From NCBI RefSeq assembly GCF_020520425.1, contig NC_079488.1:37749247-37813246 (forward strand): a DNA stretch of 64,000 nt. The letters are read 5' to 3'. The notes under the pieces are model-generated. The model searched no databases. It had not been told where the DNA came from and saw only the letters and a list, made by a program, of their open reading frames with translations. Below are positions 4,736 through 39,780 of the stretch, in pieces. Made by a program: the position numbers and the translations under genes. This DNA is from Spinacia oleracea. Taxonomy: Eukaryota; Streptophyta; Magnoliopsida; Caryophyllales; Amaranthaceae. Each line of letters begins with the position of its first letter. Within the stretch, counting starts at the first letter, position 1.

Positions 4736-5742
4736 TGAAGGAAATATGTCCTTCACCCAAGGTGTATTAAGTCTAATACCAAGGTTCAGATTAATTGCGA
4801 ACAATTAATTCAGTGAGATCAAGTGATCAGAACAGCTAGCTGGAGCAATGCTTCCGATTAGTGAGTTCTAATGGATATTGAACTCACAACTTACTCTTGA
4901 CTGAACCTACAAGGTCACACCAATGACACGTAACATATCACCGGATAAATGAATCGGAAATTCATTTAATAGCTTTTCGGGATTTAAGTTGGAAACGTAT
5001 TATACGATACGACCTTGCATCGGAATAGTATATCGTATCGCGAATATTCGTAAGCTAGGCGAAACCAATAAATCGTATCGTACGACGGTGACTCGTCGTA
5101 TACGAAACGATAAATAATATATCGGAAATATATTAAACGCGAATACGAAGGGCGGCCCACGAGCCGAGTGTGCGAAGCACTCGAGGCCCATGGGCGCGCT
5201 AGGCGAGCAAAAGGCCAAGGCAACACGGCAGCGCTAGGCCCATGGCCGAGCATGGCTGTGCATGTGCGCGCGGGCCTGTGCAGCGACACAGCCACAGCAA
5301 GCGAGGCCCATGACCCAGCGCGCTGTGCTTGTCGCACGCACGGCTTGCTGGCCGGCCTTGCCTACGGGCTTGGTCGGTTCATTAAGGTTATGTAAATAAA
5401 CCTTATGACCTAATTTCTAACTACTGCAATCACAATTCAGATTACACACAACCCTAGGAGAAAACAGAGAACCCTAATTCTCTCTGTGACTCCATAGTGT
5501 GTTCATCCCAAATAGCAAATCTCTTGATCGATTGTCTAAGCTACGATAATCAAGACGGATCTGATCGTGTCGGTGAACCAAGTAGAGGAACGACAAGTGG
5601 AGTTCTTTGTTCGTGTTCGTTGACGGATTATTGTGGAAAACACGCTTCGAATGTAAGTTTGCTTAATCTGTGCTTTATACATGTTTCCTGGCTTTGGGGA
5701 TTGTTCCGCACATGTTATTATGTTTAACTGTATTCCCCAACA
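4736..5742 (+). repeat. Copia 5' LTR
   Basis: Bounded by TGAAGG and CCCCAACA. It contains a patch rich in TACG/CGTA words (about 4995-5120) and a GC-rich block (about 5150-5380) unlike the AT-rich remainder. It pairs with 13148-14213. Confidence 0.93.
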
Positions 5743-18046: not shown

Positions 18047-18225
18047 TTGGTGGTTACATCCAATAGTCCAATACTATTGGGTGGTGGACTAGATTCACAT
18101 TTTTCTGGTGGTTACATCCAATAGTTTAATATATACTAATGGGTGGTGGACGCGATCCACATCTCTCTGGTGGTTACATCCAATAGTTCAATATATACTA
18201 TTGGGTGGTGGACTCGATCCACATT
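18047..18225 (+). repeat. Three tandem units of about 60 bp
   Basis: Units start at 18049, 18107 and 18169. Each has GGTGGTTACATCCAATAG followed by TATTGGGTGGTGGAC and GATCCACAT. Spacing is 58 and 62 bp. Confidence 0.85.
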
Positions 18226-18334
18226 ACTCAAATGGTGAACTTATAAGAAATTAAAAATAAACCCTTATTACTTATGGTTATATGTACTAGTTTTATAAGA
18301 ATTGTTTATCAATTTGTACTTATGTGTTTGTTAA

Positions 18335-18382
<48 letters not shown>
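18335..18382. repeat. TTA microsatellite, outer left
   Basis: About 16 perfect ATT units within the solo LTR. Confidence 0.95.
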
Positions 18383-18469
18383 CCACACGATTTCATGTCA
18401 TTAAGAGCATTAAGCCAAACTTCTACCACATGAGAAAGTTATCTTATATCCCACGTTCAAAGACCACCG

Positions 18470-18527
18470 TTATTATTATTATTATTATTATTATAAAAAA
18501 TAATAATAATAATAATAATAATAATAA
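18470..18527. repeat. TTA then TAA microsatellite abutting the 3' end of the non-LTR element
   Basis: About eight TTA units, a short A run, then about ten TAA units that touch the element end at 18528. On the element's own (minus) strand the abutting part reads TTA repeated, so it may be the element's 3' tail. The outer part would then be target DNA. Confidence 0.85.
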
Positions 18528-18546
18528 GCTACAAAGATCAAATGAA

Positions 18547-21500
18547 CTACAAGAAGTTGGAGGGGAGCCGAGATACAATCTGGGCCCCCACTCCTCTAGC
18601 TATGGCGAACCCGATCCTGCTGAAAATGTGGGCAGCTGCCCGTGCCCCAATGTCTTGAGCCCTGGAGTACGCCTGGACCCGCTTCAGCAAAGAAACAGCC
18701 CCTTTCTCTAATTCCCCAAAAGAAGAGAAGGAAAAAGGGAAGAAACCGTAACCCAAAGCCCTACAACGTGCCCCATACTTATTCTGCTTCCGCTGCGCTG
18801 CAACCGCCACAACCCGACCCGGAACGAAGCCTGACAACCCAGATTGCGTCATAGGGGAAGACCCAGTCAAGTCAACACACACATCTAGACCACCATCCCA
18901 TGAGTAAAGCAGTATATCTGCAGGACGAAGAGCTCCATCACTCTCACTAGTCAGCCCAACATCAACCTCCTTGCGAGCAGAAATCCCCGACCGATAGCAA
19001 ATATCCAAAAGGGTATCACGAACAACATTATGCCGATGTTTGATACCCACAATCCCAGCACAAGACACGGCATGATCCCCATAAATGTCCCCGTCGAAAA
19101 CCCGAGAGCAAGCAGAACACGGCGTCGAATAAGAGAACAACGGAATACCCAACCGATAGCAAAGAACCGAACGATAAGTCTTACCGTTCATAGTCTGGCC
19201 TAACACCGAGATGGGGACTGCCCGCAACCAAGCCGAGGAGTGATCCCCCTGCTGTGATTTCCATAGGGCAACAAGACGCGAAGATAAGGAGAAGGCGGAT
19301 TCCGCATCAGCAGTAACCTTCGTGAAATATATGTCTGCCAATTTCTTCATGAGTCTGGGGGCAGCGATCTCACTAGGGCTACGCATAAGGTCGGTCTCCA
19401 CGGTCCTATTGAAAAGACCAAGAGCATCGTCAAAGGCCGGTCCCGGACCATCAACACCTGAAAGCCGAAGAAGCGAATCCTGCAAACCAGAAGACTGCAA
19501 ACGGGATGTAAGAAAAGCATAATGCCGAACATCACCAGCTGAATAAACACCCAATCCTCCATAAGAATAAGGCAAGGTGGAAAGGCGCCATTGCCAGTCA
19601 CCGAAACCAGGTCCCGAAGCAGTCACGATGCGCTCTAAAGAAGCCCGCAAAGCCACATCAAAGGATAATTGGGCCGCTTCGAAAAGATGAGGCGGACAAG
19701 TGCGCATAGCAAAGTAGAGTTTAGAAACTCCAGTACACGCACGAAGAAGCAACAACTCACACTGGGGATCATTAAGCTTGGCTACAGCATCCATCAATAC
19801 AATAGCCTTCGACACACGCTGCGAAACCAACTCCTTACAAAAAGAGGAATCCGTACTGACTGGGCCACCAAGCAACTTAACACCAAGCGCAGGACGAGCA
19901 ATATCCGTAGGAAAGACACCCTCTAGACGACTGCGGGGGTCCTCCGAAGGCCAGAAAACCTCCGTCTTCTCAACATTAACATGGAGACCTAAATGAGGAC
20001 CCTCCTCCAAAATCAACTCCAAGACCTGTCCAACCACCAAAGTGTCACCAACGATAGTGTCATCGTCCAAGTACCAAGCCTGAAGAGATAGATCAAATGA
20101 GTCTCTGATTCGACACACCAATGGATGTAGAACCAGAGAAAAAAGCAAAGGGCCGAGAGGATCCCCTTGCTGTACACCCTGACAAGACCACAAGGTATGC
20201 TCCCCAAAATACAGCCGCGCTGGAGAAGAGTAGCAGAATTCAACCCAACGCGAAAGAGCAGGACAATGAAGCCGTACCTCACGCAACAAAGCCGAACGAT
20301 CAACTAAATTGAACGCATTCCGAAAATCCACCAATAACATAGAGAGGCCAACATCAGCCCCACGAGCCTCAACCAACCGATTGACAGCATGGAGAATGGC
20401 CTCACCACCAGCTGGAACCCCAACTCCAAACTGAAGACCTCCAAAGTAGTTTCCTAAACGCGGACCAATCAAAGCTGCCCCGACCTTAGAAACAAGGCGC
20501 CTCCAAATAGTGCCCACGGCAATAGGCCGAATACCCCCACCAGGCTTAATAAGTGGCGTAAGAGGAGCACTAGCAATGTATCCTCCAAGCTCAGCGGGAC
20601 ACTTTCCAGCAAGAAAGAGATTAACAACCTGAGTGATAGCATCCACCAACTCATCAGAAACAGCTACAGCAGCACCACCCAAGCAATCCAAAAGGTGTTG
20701 AGCACGCAAGCCATCTCTACCGCACGAAGTACCACGCGGAAAGCCCATAATCTGCTCCAAAACAACAGCGGAGGAAGCAATAAGGTGGTGATCAACAGGG
20801 ATATCCGGTAAGGTAGGGACCGGAACGGAAGGGTGCTTTGCTTGCAAATCTGCAAGAGTAGCATCATTGTAAGGGGCAAGACCTGAGGAAGAAAGAACCC
20901 TAACGGCAGCAGTGTAGTGACCGTCAGAAATCTTTCTCTTGCATTGCTTAATATTACGCTCCGCCAAACCATGGTCGTCGTCAACATCCAATAGAGGGGG
21001 AGACACACTAGCCAATGTGTCTATGACAAGTTGCTCAGAACCACCAGGCACACCCCAAGAACGAATAGCAGAGGTGATACTCTCTTCCTGTTGCCGCCGC
21101 CTAACACCGGAGGAACACTCACGATTACTTCGTGGAGAAAAAGTCTTGAGGACACAAAGAGGTAACACGAGCAACTGAACCCAACAAGCGATGTCATCTG
21201 GCCTGCAAATCACCTTATCAAGCGCCCCTTTCAGAACTCGCGAAAAACCCAAACGACATTTGGGAGGGATGGATTTCACAGAACGCAGCCGCTTGGACCA
21301 TAAAGTGTTTAGAAGAGCAACATCAAAAGAAAAATGATGTTCTCGAGGCGCAACAGAAGTAGACAGCTCGGAAGCAGGAGCTTGCGGTTTTTGAATACCG
21401 TAGAGAGTAAAACGAATAGTACCATCCCCAGAATCAGGTGGGTCCACAAAAACCGTACTAGAAGCACTGCCATGACGACACCTAATACGATGAGTATGCG

Positions 21501-21738
21501 TCTTGAAACAATCTCCACATAACCAAATTCCCATACGACGAAAGGTCACCTCAGCCGTAGTAAAAACCTGCAAATTGGTAGTAAGGGAATGACGGGTTAC
21601 ATCCCGCACACCAGTGCAACAATGTCGATCACGTAAGTGAGTGATCAGAGAACTCCTCACCAAACCACGCCCACCTCCATCCTGGCACCCGCTAAGACCC
21701 ACAAAAGGGCAATGAAACTTCTCTACGGAAGCCGCCAT
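18547..21738 (-). CDS. Reverse transcriptase with C-terminal restriction-like endonuclease, ~1063 aa
   Basis: A single open frame without stops. The start at 21738 (MAASVEKFHC) is preferred over an upstream in-frame ATG at 21807 because the zinc finger follows at once. Residues 10-40 form a C..C..H..H finger (CPF..C..HLRDRHC). RT spans about 320-640, with motif A VDFRNAFN (near 470), motif B QGDPLGP (near 524) and catalytic YLDDD (near 557). The C terminus has a CCHC knuckle (CSAC..GDHAVSC, near 874). This is followed by RPADILL and CVDLT (near 938 and 955), as expected for a PD-(D/E)XK restriction-like endonuclease. It would nick target DNA and prime reverse transcription there. Related proteins occur in plant genomes as unnamed reverse transcriptases; the clade is my inference. 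Confidence 0.85.
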   Translation of the reverse strand: MAASVEKFHCPFVGLSGCQDGGGRGLVRSSLITHLRDRHCCTGVRDVTRHSLTTNLQVFTTAEVTFRRMGIWLCGDCFKTHTHRIRCRHGSASSTVFVDPPDSGDGTIRFTLYGIQKPQAPASELSTSVAPREHHFSFDVALLNTLWSKRLRSVKSIPPKCRLGFSRVLKGALDKVICRPDDIACWVQLLVLPLCVLKTFSPRSNRECSSGVRRRQQEESITSAIRSWGVPGGSEQLVIDTLASVSPPLLDVDDDHGLAERNIKQCKRKISDGHYTAAVRVLSSSGLAPYNDATLADLQAKHPSVPVPTLPDIPVDHHLIASSAVVLEQIMGFPRGTSCGRDGLRAQHLLDCLGGAAVAVSDELVDAITQVVNLFLAGKCPAELGGYIASAPLTPLIKPGGGIRPIAVGTIWRRLVSKVGAALIGPRLGNYFGGLQFGVGVPAGGEAILHAVNRLVEARGADVGLSMLLVDFRNAFNLVDRSALLREVRLHCPALSRWVEFCYSSPARLYFGEHTLWSCQGVQQGDPLGPLLFSLVLHPLVCRIRDSFDLSLQAWYLDDDTIVGDTLVVGQVLELILEEGPHLGLHVNVEKTEVFWPSEDPRSRLEGVFPTDIARPALGVKLLGGPVSTDSSFCKELVSQRVSKAIVLMDAVAKLNDPQCELLLLRACTGVSKLYFAMRTCPPHLFEAAQLSFDVALRASLERIVTASGPGFGDWQWRLSTLPYSYGGLGVYSAGDVRHYAFLTSRLQSSGLQDSLLRLSGVDGPGPAFDDALGLFNRTVETDLMRSPSEIAAPRLMKKLADIYFTKVTADAESAFSLSSRLVALWKSQQGDHSSAWLRAVPISVLGQTMNGKTYRSVLCYRLGIPLFSYSTPCSACSRVFDGDIYGDHAVSCAGIVGIKHRHNVVRDTLLDICYRSGISARKEVDVGLTSESDGALRPADILLYSWDGGLDVCVDLTGSSPMTQSGLSGFVPGRVVAVAAQRKQNKYGARCRALGYGFFPFSFSSFGELEKGAVSLLKRVQAYSRAQDIGARAAAHIFSRIGFAIARGVGAQIVSRLPSNFL

Positions 21739-22580
21739 AACAAAGCACTTCAACCAAAAAGTAACTTCAACCAACGAACACCAACGAACACCACACAGCA
21801 AACCCAAGAGGACAAATCACCCAAGAGAACACACTCACGGTTGTTGCACACTCACGATCAAAACACCCAAGTGAACAAAACACTCACGAACAACAATCAC
21901 GGTTGTTGCACACAAGAGAAGATCAAAACGCCCAAGAGAACCCCAAAATGAAGCTGAGCACCAAACTGAAACCCACGACTGAAACAGAACCCCAAAGTGA
22001 TCTCCAAATTGCCGGGAAATGATCGAAACACAAACTGCAACACCAAAAACATAAACTGCAACACCAAAACCAAAACGCAACACCAACCTGCGAACCAGAC
22101 TGAAACGGAACAACCCACGAACTTACGAACAAACGCACTTGAAACTCTCGAACGGAACTGAAACCCAGACTGAAACCCAAACCACCGAACAACTGAAAAG
22201 CCACCGGAAATGTTTGAAAACCCAAAATGAAACCCAAACTGAAACTGCCGAACTGCCGAACTGACGAACCCACGAACCTGAAACTGAAGCCGCGCTAAAC
22301 CACCGGAAATGCCTGAAAACCGCCGACACATAAGCCCCCTGAAAACCACCGGAAATGCCTGCTTAACCACCGGAAAAGGCTGTGAAAATCGTTGCTAACA
22401 ACCTGCGAAAACCCCCACGAAACCGCCTGGAAACCGCCTGAACGCCGTCGCCTGACACCTGACCGCCCTCGCCAGACCCCGGCACACCGACGCCGACGCC
22501 GGAGATCCCTGGATGATCGACGAGGAGGGAGCCTTAAACGCACGTAAACATCGTGCCCTAATCGCCTGTTTTTGAGAGGA
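21739..22580 (-). other. 5' leader of the non-LTR element
   Basis: On the plus strand it is rich in A and C with loosely repeated words such as ACTGAAACCC and CACTCACG. This keeps several frames open by composition. A promoter must lie here if the element is active, as in other non-LTR elements, but none can be identified by eye. Confidence 0.5.
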
Positions 22581-22615
22581 TTTTATTATTATTATTTTTA
22601 TTTTATTTATTATTA

Positions 22616-22696
<81 letters not shown>
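22580..22696. repeat. ATT microsatellite at the 5' side of the non-LTR element
   Basis: About 35 ATT units with a T run and two ATTTT interruptions. It is the same repeat as on the other side (18335-18382 and 18470-18494). Confidence 0.95.
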
Positions 22697-22698
<2 letters not shown>

Positions 22699-23115
22699 GT
22701 CTGGTTATTCAATAAGCGTTGATTATGCAGCTTTTGCTGACGTCTGTGTTTATTTGTTATGTGTGTTTGCGGCCATGTCTTTTTCTTATGGTGGCCCTGC
22801 GACGATCCTTTTGGAATTTGTCCACTATGGTGAGCAGTCAAGATTGACTGGAGCAGATCGATCGTGAAAGATGCAATTACAAGTTGAAGGAGCTCAATAT
22901 TATCGTTTAGTCTTGTATGACCGTTTAATACTTTTAGTTTAAATAGACCACCTAGTAATCGAGTTGTAATAGTTTGAGTATTGTAAGCCTTAGCACTTGA
23001 CAATGTGATCAAGCGTGGCGGTGATACCTCCGAATTAGGTGTAAGCTTCCGCAAATTTATTATAAAGTCTTTTATATTCTTATTTATTAATAGCTAATAA
23101 ATTGGGGGTGTTACA
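22697..23115 (+). other. Right part of the solo LTR
   Basis: No gene. The end (GTGGCGGTGATACCTCC, then AATTGGGGGTGTTACA) looks like the usual 3' end of a Ty3-type LTR. Confidence 0.6.
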
Positions 23116-38545: not shown

Positions 38546-38567
38546 ATTATTATTATTATTATTGTTA

Positions 38568-38634
<67 letters not shown>

Positions 38635-38685
38635 GTTGTTGTTGTTGTTGTTGTTGTTGTTATTAATTTATTATTATTATTATTA

Positions 38686-38722
<37 letters not shown>
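38546..38722. repeat. ATT/GTT compound microsatellite
   Basis: About 25 ATT units, nine GTT units, then about 18 further ATT units with a few interruptions. Confidence 0.95.
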
Positions 38723-38723
<1 letters not shown>

Positions 38724-38879
38724 GGTATATGTTTATATCATTGTTATTATATTTAATATTTTATTACTATTATTGCTTTAATAAAAAATAATGTTGTTGT
38801 CGGTGCAATTAAAATCTATCATTTAAAGCATAAAAAAACATTAACAAAACATTCAAATTGATCATGTCCAAATTAAAAC

Positions 38880-39780
38880 CATTAAGTTCAGGTTAGAAAC
38901 GATATGATCAGGTCATGTCCATATCAGAACTGATTTTTATAGATCAGAACCATTATATATCCAGACTAGAACTGATAGGATCAGATAATATCCAAATCAT
39001 AACTGACTTGTACAGATCATGTCCAGATCATGTTCAAATCTGCAAAGATCTTGTCTACATCAGAACCGGTCCTTACAGAACCAATATGTTCAGATCAAAA
39101 CCGATTTGTACAGATCATGTCCAGATCAGAATCGATATGTCCAAATTATAACTTGTCTAGATATCGACTCTGTACAGATTATGTTCAGATTAGAATTGAT
39201 CTGCAAAGATCATGTCCAGATAAGAACTAGTCTGTACATATCATGACCTGATCAGAACTGATCTGCACAAATCATGACCAGATTAGAACTAATCTATACA
39301 GATCATGACCAGATCAGAACTGATTTGTACAAATCATGACCAGATCATAACTGATCTGTACAGATCATGTCCTGATCAGAACTGATCTATACAGATCATG
39401 TCCAAATCATGTCTAGATCAGAACTGAACTGTACATATCATTTCCAGATCAGAATTGATCTGTACAGATCATGTCCAGATCAGAACTGATCTATACAGAT
39501 CATGTCTAGATCAGAACTGAACTGTACATATCATGTCCAGATCAGAACTGATTTGTACATATCATGTCTAGATCATGTCTAGATCATAACTAAACTGTAC
39601 ATATCATGTATAGATCAGAACTACTCTGTACAGATCATGTCCAGATTAGAACTGATCATGTCCAGTTCATAACTTATATGTACAAATCATGTATAGATTA
39701 GAACCGATCTGTACATATCATATCCAGATCAAAACTTATATGTCTAGATCATAACCGATCAATCTAGATCATGTATAGGT
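38880..39780. repeat. Degenerate GATC-rich minisatellite, unit about 40 bp
   Basis: Repeats of GATCATGTCCAGATCAG followed by AACTGATCTGTACA. The core GATCTGTACAGATC is a perfect palindrome, so each unit can form a short hairpin. About 20 to 25 units of varying length. The three ORFs through it are repeat artefacts. Confidence 0.85.

Follow-up and report, generated by a model that had tools for sequence, protein, structure and literature searches.

Site-specific retrotransposons that carry a restriction-like endonuclease (RLE) are models for target-primed insertion. In the literature surveyed, target-specific RLE elements are described from animals, fungi, trypanosomatids, oomycetes and amoebae. 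Targeting of TAA is reported for some animal elements. For plants, the titles and abstract openings of the literature matches listed contain no description of RLE elements that target a microsatellite.

Dong inserts in TAA repeats, and both Dong and R4 display an HDV-like ribozyme (text surveyed of PMC3774820). DongAg and DongBg are named as microsatellite insertions in the portion surveyed of PMC3636483. The spinach element analyzed here is similar to the Dong/R4 type (Dong of Bombyx mori) in being of the RLE type, in its insertion in TAA repeats and in the TAA sense, relative to the element, of the 5′ repeat. It differs in having a plant host and in that Rfam finds no HDV-like ribozyme at its 5′ end. 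HERO and Togen are RLE elements, some with microsatellite targets, e.g. (TG)n for Togen, according to the text surveyed of PMC4640811. They share with the spinach element the RLE and, in some, the microsatellite target, but Togen has a fish host and uses a repeat other than TAA. R2 provides the closest PDB sequence for the spinach RT and the closest PDB fold for its RLE; however the target of R2 is 28S rDNA and not a microsatellite, and identity in the fold alignments is 11–20%.

Spliced-leader genes are a target of the CRE clade (SLACS, CRE1/2, Cnl1, MoTeR, FoTeR). Some members use telomere repeats, and the clade's RLE displays a CCHC, RHN, E, an xAD-type motif (RAD in MoTeR and FoTeR) and a later D/E, as given in the text surveyed of PMC12857005. 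The spinach RLE has the same series, although its target is TAA and not spliced-leader genes or telomeres. The program MGEScan labels 642 spinach LINEs as “CRE”, with a mean length of 4.6 kb from the printed totals (portion surveyed of PMC6337768). The whole word “CRE” does not occur in the flax paper PMC3544724. The present findings suggest that software-assigned “CRE” LINEs in plant annotations merit re-examination.

Element and genomic arrangement

The window, i.e. the whole stretch of DNA analyzed, consists of 64,000 nucleotides of Spinacia oleracea (NC_079488.1), and coordinates are window positions. Its element can with good probability be regarded as a young, recently active RLE-type non-LTR retrotransposon that inserts into (TAA)n microsatellites. 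The features are as follows.

18335..18381, unstranded: left target-microsatellite remnant, (ATT)15.7, which is TAA in element sense (from host-repeat copies)
18382..18469, minus strand: 88 bp brought along on the 3′ side of the element (host-repeat comparison and second genomic place)
18470..18527, minus strand: (TTA)8.3, A run, (AAT)9.7, hairpin-like, between element and 88 bp
18528..22580, minus strand: retrotransposon body, 4053 bp (copy comparison)
18528..18546, minus strand: 3′ untranslated stretch of the window copy, final bases TTTGTAGC
18547..21738, minus strand: ORF, 1063 aa plus stop
18775..19119, minus strand: CCHC knuckle and restriction-like endonuclease (RHN, KE, RPAD, CVDLT, KxxKY), from motifs and fold
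19951..20547, minus strand: reverse transcriptase domain, RVT_1, E 2.3e-13 (Pfam)
20062..20073, minus strand: RT YLDD motif
21622..21711, minus strand: C2H2-like zinc finger, N-terminal (CPFVGLSGC...HLRDRH), by motif only
21739..22580, minus strand: 5′ UTR, begins TCCTCTCAAAAACAGGCGATTAGGGC
22583..22696, unstranded: right target-microsatellite remnant, TTA array (from host-repeat copies)
22697..23090, plus strand: host flank, within an LTR-like repeat present in high copy number; the empty site comes from its other copies

The inserted unit spans 18382 to about 22582, its right edge lying in TA-rich DNA, and no terminal repeats were seen at the element ends. The reading frame is open from 21816 to 18547, which gives 1089 aa from stop to stop and 1063 aa when counted from the Met at 21738. 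Within 18470..18527 the (TTA)8.3 array is at 18470–18494 and the (AAT)9.7 array at 18499–18527. The right remnant has clean TTA units at 22628–22696 and degenerate ones at 22583–22627. At least 40 places (window included), scored from 483 first-look candidates, display 98–100% identity over 501 bp. The 5′ regions differ among the other copies of the element.

Empty sites and target arrays

The host repeat at 22697..23090 gave 422 first-look candidates, and 40 of these were scored. Its other copies have one array at the position of 18335–18381, joined to the sequence that is found at 22697. By this comparison the arrays 18335–18381 and 22628–22696 are the split target, and the proposal of the initial annotation that the outer arrays arose in this way is borne out by host-repeat copies without the element, which show one array. 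Empty sites carrying a single array were found for the window copy (two sites) and for copy L014 (eight sites). On either side of the window copy the host repeat is intact; at L014 the flanks are altered only by TAA units and minor differences. The sequences show that the element has entered single TAA arrays and that array units remain on both sides of it.

The same pattern is found in other copies. Forty-one were examined and the 5′ junction could be set by homology in 37; in 29 of these it is located at most 20 bp from a TAA/TTA array, against a background of 0.3–0.5%. Elsewhere in the window 0.29% of positions (343 of 118,000, both strands) are at such an array, and in view of this background and of the pattern in other copies a chance association is unlikely. 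The microsatellite specificity for TAA/TTA that was proposed at the outset is supported by these junctions and by the single-array empty sites. The 5′ arrays are TAA in element sense in 33 of 35 cases, and a minority of insertions have the TTA orientation or have no 5′ array.

The 3′ end and the 88 bp

An array is present at the 3′ end of all 38 copies scored. In element sense the 3′ junction is TAA in 31 of the 38 and begins with TTA in seven. The TTA run at the 3′ end of the window copy, which separates the element from the 88 bp, is therefore atypical, and TTA/TAA mosaics like 18470..18527 are found at the 3′ end in 5/38 copies. Most other copies have 3 to about 32 further bases, beyond the 3′ end of the window copy, before the array begins.

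The 88 bp sequence is found at one other place in the genome, C2:75318682-75318769, with 100% identity. In the 71 bases read there it is followed by a (TTA)n array and then a T run, and no element is next to it. A window-like arrangement at this C2 copy is absent, as it would rank first and is not among the 40 scored, although a diverged element may lie at a greater distance. The 88 bp is also missing from 39/39 other scored host-repeat copies, and its interpretation as plain host flank is rejected for this reason. It is probably a 3′ transduction from C2:75318682-75318769 that records two successive TAA insertions. The 18470..18527 sequence would then stand at the array position of the presumed parent site, and the adjoining 88 bp would come from that site too. 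The earlier idea that the inner TTA units are a retrotranscribed tail is upheld in part: they arrived with the element, but they occupy the array position of this parent site and do not represent the usual end of the family.

The presence of the 88 bp beside a TTA array elsewhere suggests RNA run-on into a downstream array. In the proposed mechanism the RLE, possibly aided by the zinc finger, would nick the TTA strand of an array, a cleavage specificity deduced from the insertions, and the RT would begin cDNA at the nick (target-primed reverse transcription). Transcripts of the element would continue into the TAA array downstream of the parent copy, and their UAA units may pair with the TTA primer. 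Run-on and pairing together would explain why all scored copies have TAA/TTA units after the 3′ end, the variability of the exact 3′ end, and the 88 bp of the window copy with its TTA-array neighbour elsewhere.

Alternatively, sites may not be selected by an endonuclease. Breaks or open AT-rich, hairpin-prone DNA would be used, and the sites would be picked by UAA-ended RNA that pairs with TTA strands, or by selection. The run-on suggested by the 88 bp, the few insertions that are TTA-oriented or without a 5′ array, and a review whose text surveyed mentions microsatellites as landing pads of plant elements (PMC12477314) are consistent with this. It is nevertheless unlikely, as the element has R2-type RLE motifs that its related families conserve, other RLE elements have specific targets (text surveyed of PMC4640811), and the 5′ arrays have a strong TAA bias, one that RNA pairing could also yield.

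It is very improbable that the element itself makes the TAA units as a tail, by 3′-end slippage, and inserts without target specificity. The 3′ array in all copies scored would fit such a tail, as would the 6/16 truncated copies that lack a four-unit array on the 5′ side. These six represent the copies in non-repetitive DNA that the initial annotation considered incompatible with targeting, yet 6/6 have a 3′ array. However, arrays directly adjoin the 5′ junction in 9/16 copies truncated at unrelated points (0.5% expected), which argues that the repeat is the target and not only a tail, and element-free host-repeat copies already hold the array; the tail reading is rejected on these points. Also very improbable, and rejected, is the reading that most of the spread of copies is due to recombination among TAA arrays at separate loci and not to fresh insertion: arrays could recombine and head-to-tail copies are present at several places (L010, L012, L026, L042), but copies truncated at differing 5′ points adjoin TAA directly, and the host flanks are preserved at the window copy and, apart from the small changes noted, at L014.

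Reverse transcriptase, endonuclease and relatives

The element displays RT and R2-type RLE motifs within one ORF. RVT_1 alone is above the Pfam cut-offs; CoiA_N and MtrF are weak and below them, the N-terminal finger has no Pfam match, and an apurinic endonuclease is absent among matches up to E 10. The window copy has YLDDD at the RT motif, whereas seven other aligned full-length copies have YLDDG. The best PDB match of the RT is to R2 chains (4.9e-8), and that to L1 ORF2p is somewhat poorer (2.1e-5).

The order at the C-terminus is CSAC...GDHAVSC (CCHC), RHN, KE and RPADILL...CVDLT, i.e. the ORF has the C-terminal CCHC and PD-(D/E)XK endonuclease by which RLE elements are defined. The spacing is C2C, C11H, H3C, C8RHN, X19 to E, X13 to RPAD and X14 to D. 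For SLACS/CRE, the text surveyed of PMC12857005 prints C[X1-3]C[X7-8]H[X3-4]C[X9-10]RHD/N.X19-33.E.X9-21.R/KPD.X12-14.D/E; five of the seven intervals fit, C[X11]H and C[X8]RH are outside the printed range, and RPAD is found in place of R/KPD. The RLE agrees with R2, its best fold match in the PDB, in motif order and predicted fold, the structural model being weak, and its R2-type motifs are conserved across the related families. The initial identification of a plant non-LTR element with an R2-type RLE is supported by these motifs and the fold match.

L1 elements are usual among plant LINEs. That the spinach element is an ordinary L1 with an apurinic endonuclease and an RLE-like block by chance resemblance is scarcely credible and is rejected: its match to L1 ORF2p is only somewhat poorer than that to R2, but Pfam shows RVT_1 without the AP endonuclease, the copies displayed lack poly(A) immediately after the element end, and motif order and modelled fold agree with the R2 RLE.

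Neither the window element nor the 5′ part of L014 gives a match to an HDV-like ribozyme in Rfam, although a diverged one could escape detection. One sub-threshold lncRNA match was returned.

The lineage has more than a thousand candidate places in the genome. In viral contigs a pattern search gave no match and, separately, 27 stretches gave no confirmed relative; none was confirmed among 207 stretches of genome contigs. On balance, it is somewhat favored that spinach holds an RLE-LINE lineage of several families (about 40–55% protein identity), at least one recently active, that has retained the (TAA)n target, and whose transcripts regularly take in UAA units from downstream of the parent, these units pairing with the nicked TTA strand. 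If so, target and priming sequence would be one microsatellite and the 88 bp of the window copy a natural record of read-through priming. A plant lineage that is young, abundant and directed at a simple TAA target provides many natural replicates, together with host-repeat empty sites and a marker of pedigree. Questions that can be tested with it are how a microsatellite target is recognized, whether the site is fixed by pairing of RNA and primer, and whether the TAA arrays of plant genomes are shaped by elements of this kind. In the related families, 34–55% identical, TAA arrays are present at 12 of 14 informative ends, and two of these relatives' ends probably belong to the window's own family.

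The insertion target in the window and at empty sites

The following features are found in the window.

18048–18229: three repeats of a 62-bp unit, within the LTR-like host flank next to the insertion
18335–18381: TAA/TTA microsatellite (array)
18382–18469: 88-bp segment within the insertion, on the 3′ side of the element
18528–22580, minus strand: non-LTR retrotransposon with one 1063-aa ORF (RT and restriction-like endonuclease, RLE)
20059–20073: RT active site, YLDDD in the window copy as against YLDDG in seven other aligned full-length copies
22628–22696: array
38546–38774: long degenerate ATT array of about 78 units, near a 31-bp AGATCA-type satellite (38960–39750); no element of family A or C adjoins it

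The right flank of the window copy is part of an LTR-like repeat (422 candidate places, best 40 scored). Two element-free copies of this repeat span the site as TGTTAA-(ATT)n-GTTATATGTCTGG, the array being interrupted in one of them, and the left flank follows the same repeat up to base 18379–18382 in all 39 other scored places. Since these element-free copies and the left flank match show one array, the target as judged from sequence is a single array that was split by the insertion and is today in two parts, 18335–18381 and 22628–22696. The initial annotation had suggested that the outer arrays could be a split target, and this is upheld.

One high-copy repeat hosts two further copies, L014 and L030, in opposite orientations. 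Eight copies of this repeat without the element (L049–L056) each have one (TAA)n of three to about nine units, and around the insertion the filled and empty sites display no gain or loss except TAA units and small differences. Both filled sites contain more TAA units in total than the eight empty sites do; insertion may lengthen arrays, or long arrays may be favoured.

Arrays at the 5′ and 3′ junctions

The copy set (n = 41) consists of the window copy and 40 fetched copies (L009–L048), which were chosen by similarity. With a 501-base probe the best 40 of 483 candidate places were scored and all are 98%–100% identical; a 3′-end probe gave 1145 candidate places (best 40 scored). An RT protein search also gave 1145 candidates, and 76 of the best 150 scored are in a reading frame without stops for 1063 aa or more.

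The 5′ junctions were placed after masking of the arrays, from homology among the copies, because the test must not define a junction by the array; flanks outside the arrays differ among the partner copies used. Starts of L010, L028 and L042 were placed by eye because the automatic chain continued into an adjacent element or another repeat, and L011, L012, L027 and L047, whose starts are not settled, were omitted from the 5′ count. An array of at least 4 units within 20 bp of the junction is present in all eight copies whose first base lies at the known 5′ end or close to it (core positions 1–45) and in 9/16 copies truncated at unrelated points, or 10/16 if 32 bp is permitted and L035 is added, where a local tandem duplication intervenes. 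Seventeen copies have other 5′ regions; the start could be set from a partner copy in 13, and 12 of these have the array. In the thirteenth, L041, the array is 30 bp from the start.

Overall, 29 of 37 homology-set junctions are at an array, against a background of 343 in 118,000 positions for the window and 267 in 52,723 for the flanks. The initial annotation had proposed to compare the flanks of all copies with random sites for TTA repeats, and in the copies scored here the microsatellite specificity that it suggested is supported. A looser definition, under which the array itself marked some of the junctions, covers all 41 copies and gives an array in 35 (33 TAA and 2 TTA, element sense); the remaining six, which have none on the 5′ side, each have a 3′ array.

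The 3′ ends were scored in 38 copies; L009, L018 and L023, which are without a normal 3′ end, were omitted. An array (at least 4 units, within 60 bp) is present in every one, TAA in 31 and TTA in 7. The final element base is variable, i.e. after GTAGC, TTG, ...CGTTTT or ...TTTTCCC, and is often behind a T run. Hairpin-like TTA/TAA mosaics are found at the 3′ end of 5/38 copies, including the window copy. At its 3′ end L023 (oriented 5040–5130) has a fragment of the ORF end in inverted orientation, with (CAA)n behind it in place of TAA.

The 88-bp segment and the choice of site

The 88-bp segment is found at a sole other place, C2:75318682–75318769, with 100% identity, and a pattern search over the boundary between segment and array matches these two loci and no control. 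At the C2 place (TTA)n and then a T run adjoin the 88 bp, and the DNA on the opposite side is different. No element is present within the 71 bases read next to the 88 bp, and the C2 place is not among the best 40 scored of a search where an arrangement like that of the window would rank first.

The simplest reading is a putative 3′ transduction from the C2 TTA/TAA array. The parent copy would have stood once in that array, or may still stand there in other plants; its RNA would have run across the array and the 88 bp beyond, and the LTR array would then have received the copy of this RNA. A template switch to RNA of the C2 locus would give an identical appearance. The 88-bp junction has no poly(A). 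The predicted sequence of the parent RNA just past this junction is UAAAAU; this is similar to UAAUAAU, and therefore pairing with a TTA primer would be possible.

Pairing of UAA-containing RNA with TTA strands is also part of an alternative whereby insertion uses breaks or open AT-rich, hairpin-prone DNA and this pairing (or selection), and not the endonuclease, chooses the sites; this appears rather unlikely. Insertion of an RLE-type element into (TAA)n with nicking of the TTA strand is quite probable, and is not put higher because the statement includes the inferred nicking and because no more than 71 bases of the putative parent site were read. The predicted assignment to the RLE type by fold comes in part from a weak structure model.

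Related elements and variable 5′ regions

Dong is an RLE element of animals with a TAA microsatellite target (PMC3774820, PMC3636483), Togen is an animal RLE element that targets TG microsatellites (PMC4640811), and telomere-repeat targets occur among fungal RLE elements (PMC12857005). The abstract and sections 3 and 10 of PMC4640811 name no plant lineage, and no description of a TAA habit in plants is among the titles and abstract openings listed in literature searches. In spinach, 642 full-length ‘CRE’ LINEs totaling 2,981,624 bp are reported (PMC6337768), about 4.6 kb each as computed from the total. These software-found LINEs are probably the same elements as those described here; the relevant passages of that paper do not mention a target.

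Other families in the spinach genome display about 34%–55% protein identity over the parts compared. Fifteen 3′ ends of relatives were fetched, one of which (L061) lies inside an ORF and is uninformative; a TAA array is found behind the ORF end in 12 of the other 14 and is absent in L063 and L072. These counts include L070 and L071, which, judged on 3′ sequence, are probably the window copy's own family and its 75% subfamily. L075 is intact over 717 aa, is 55% identical, and has TAA at its end as well. L067 has foreign sequence of about 230 bp from the ORF end to the usual 3′ end of the related family (TCGCTTCTTTTT, then TAA).

Several unrelated-looking 5′ regions of about 650–950 bp are found on near-identical ORFs (L013, L021–L023, L025, L026, L037, L038, L041 and L045), which on comparison of the sequences is modular exchange of the 5′ region. 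They meet the shared core at about position 810–833, and the start of several is CTCTCAAA...GGGCGATTAGGGC or a variant. Clusters of elements, from a single family or from more than one, are found at L010, L011, L012, L019, L024, L026 and L042, with TAA arrays alone between several of them, as if the array left by one insertion were the target of the next.
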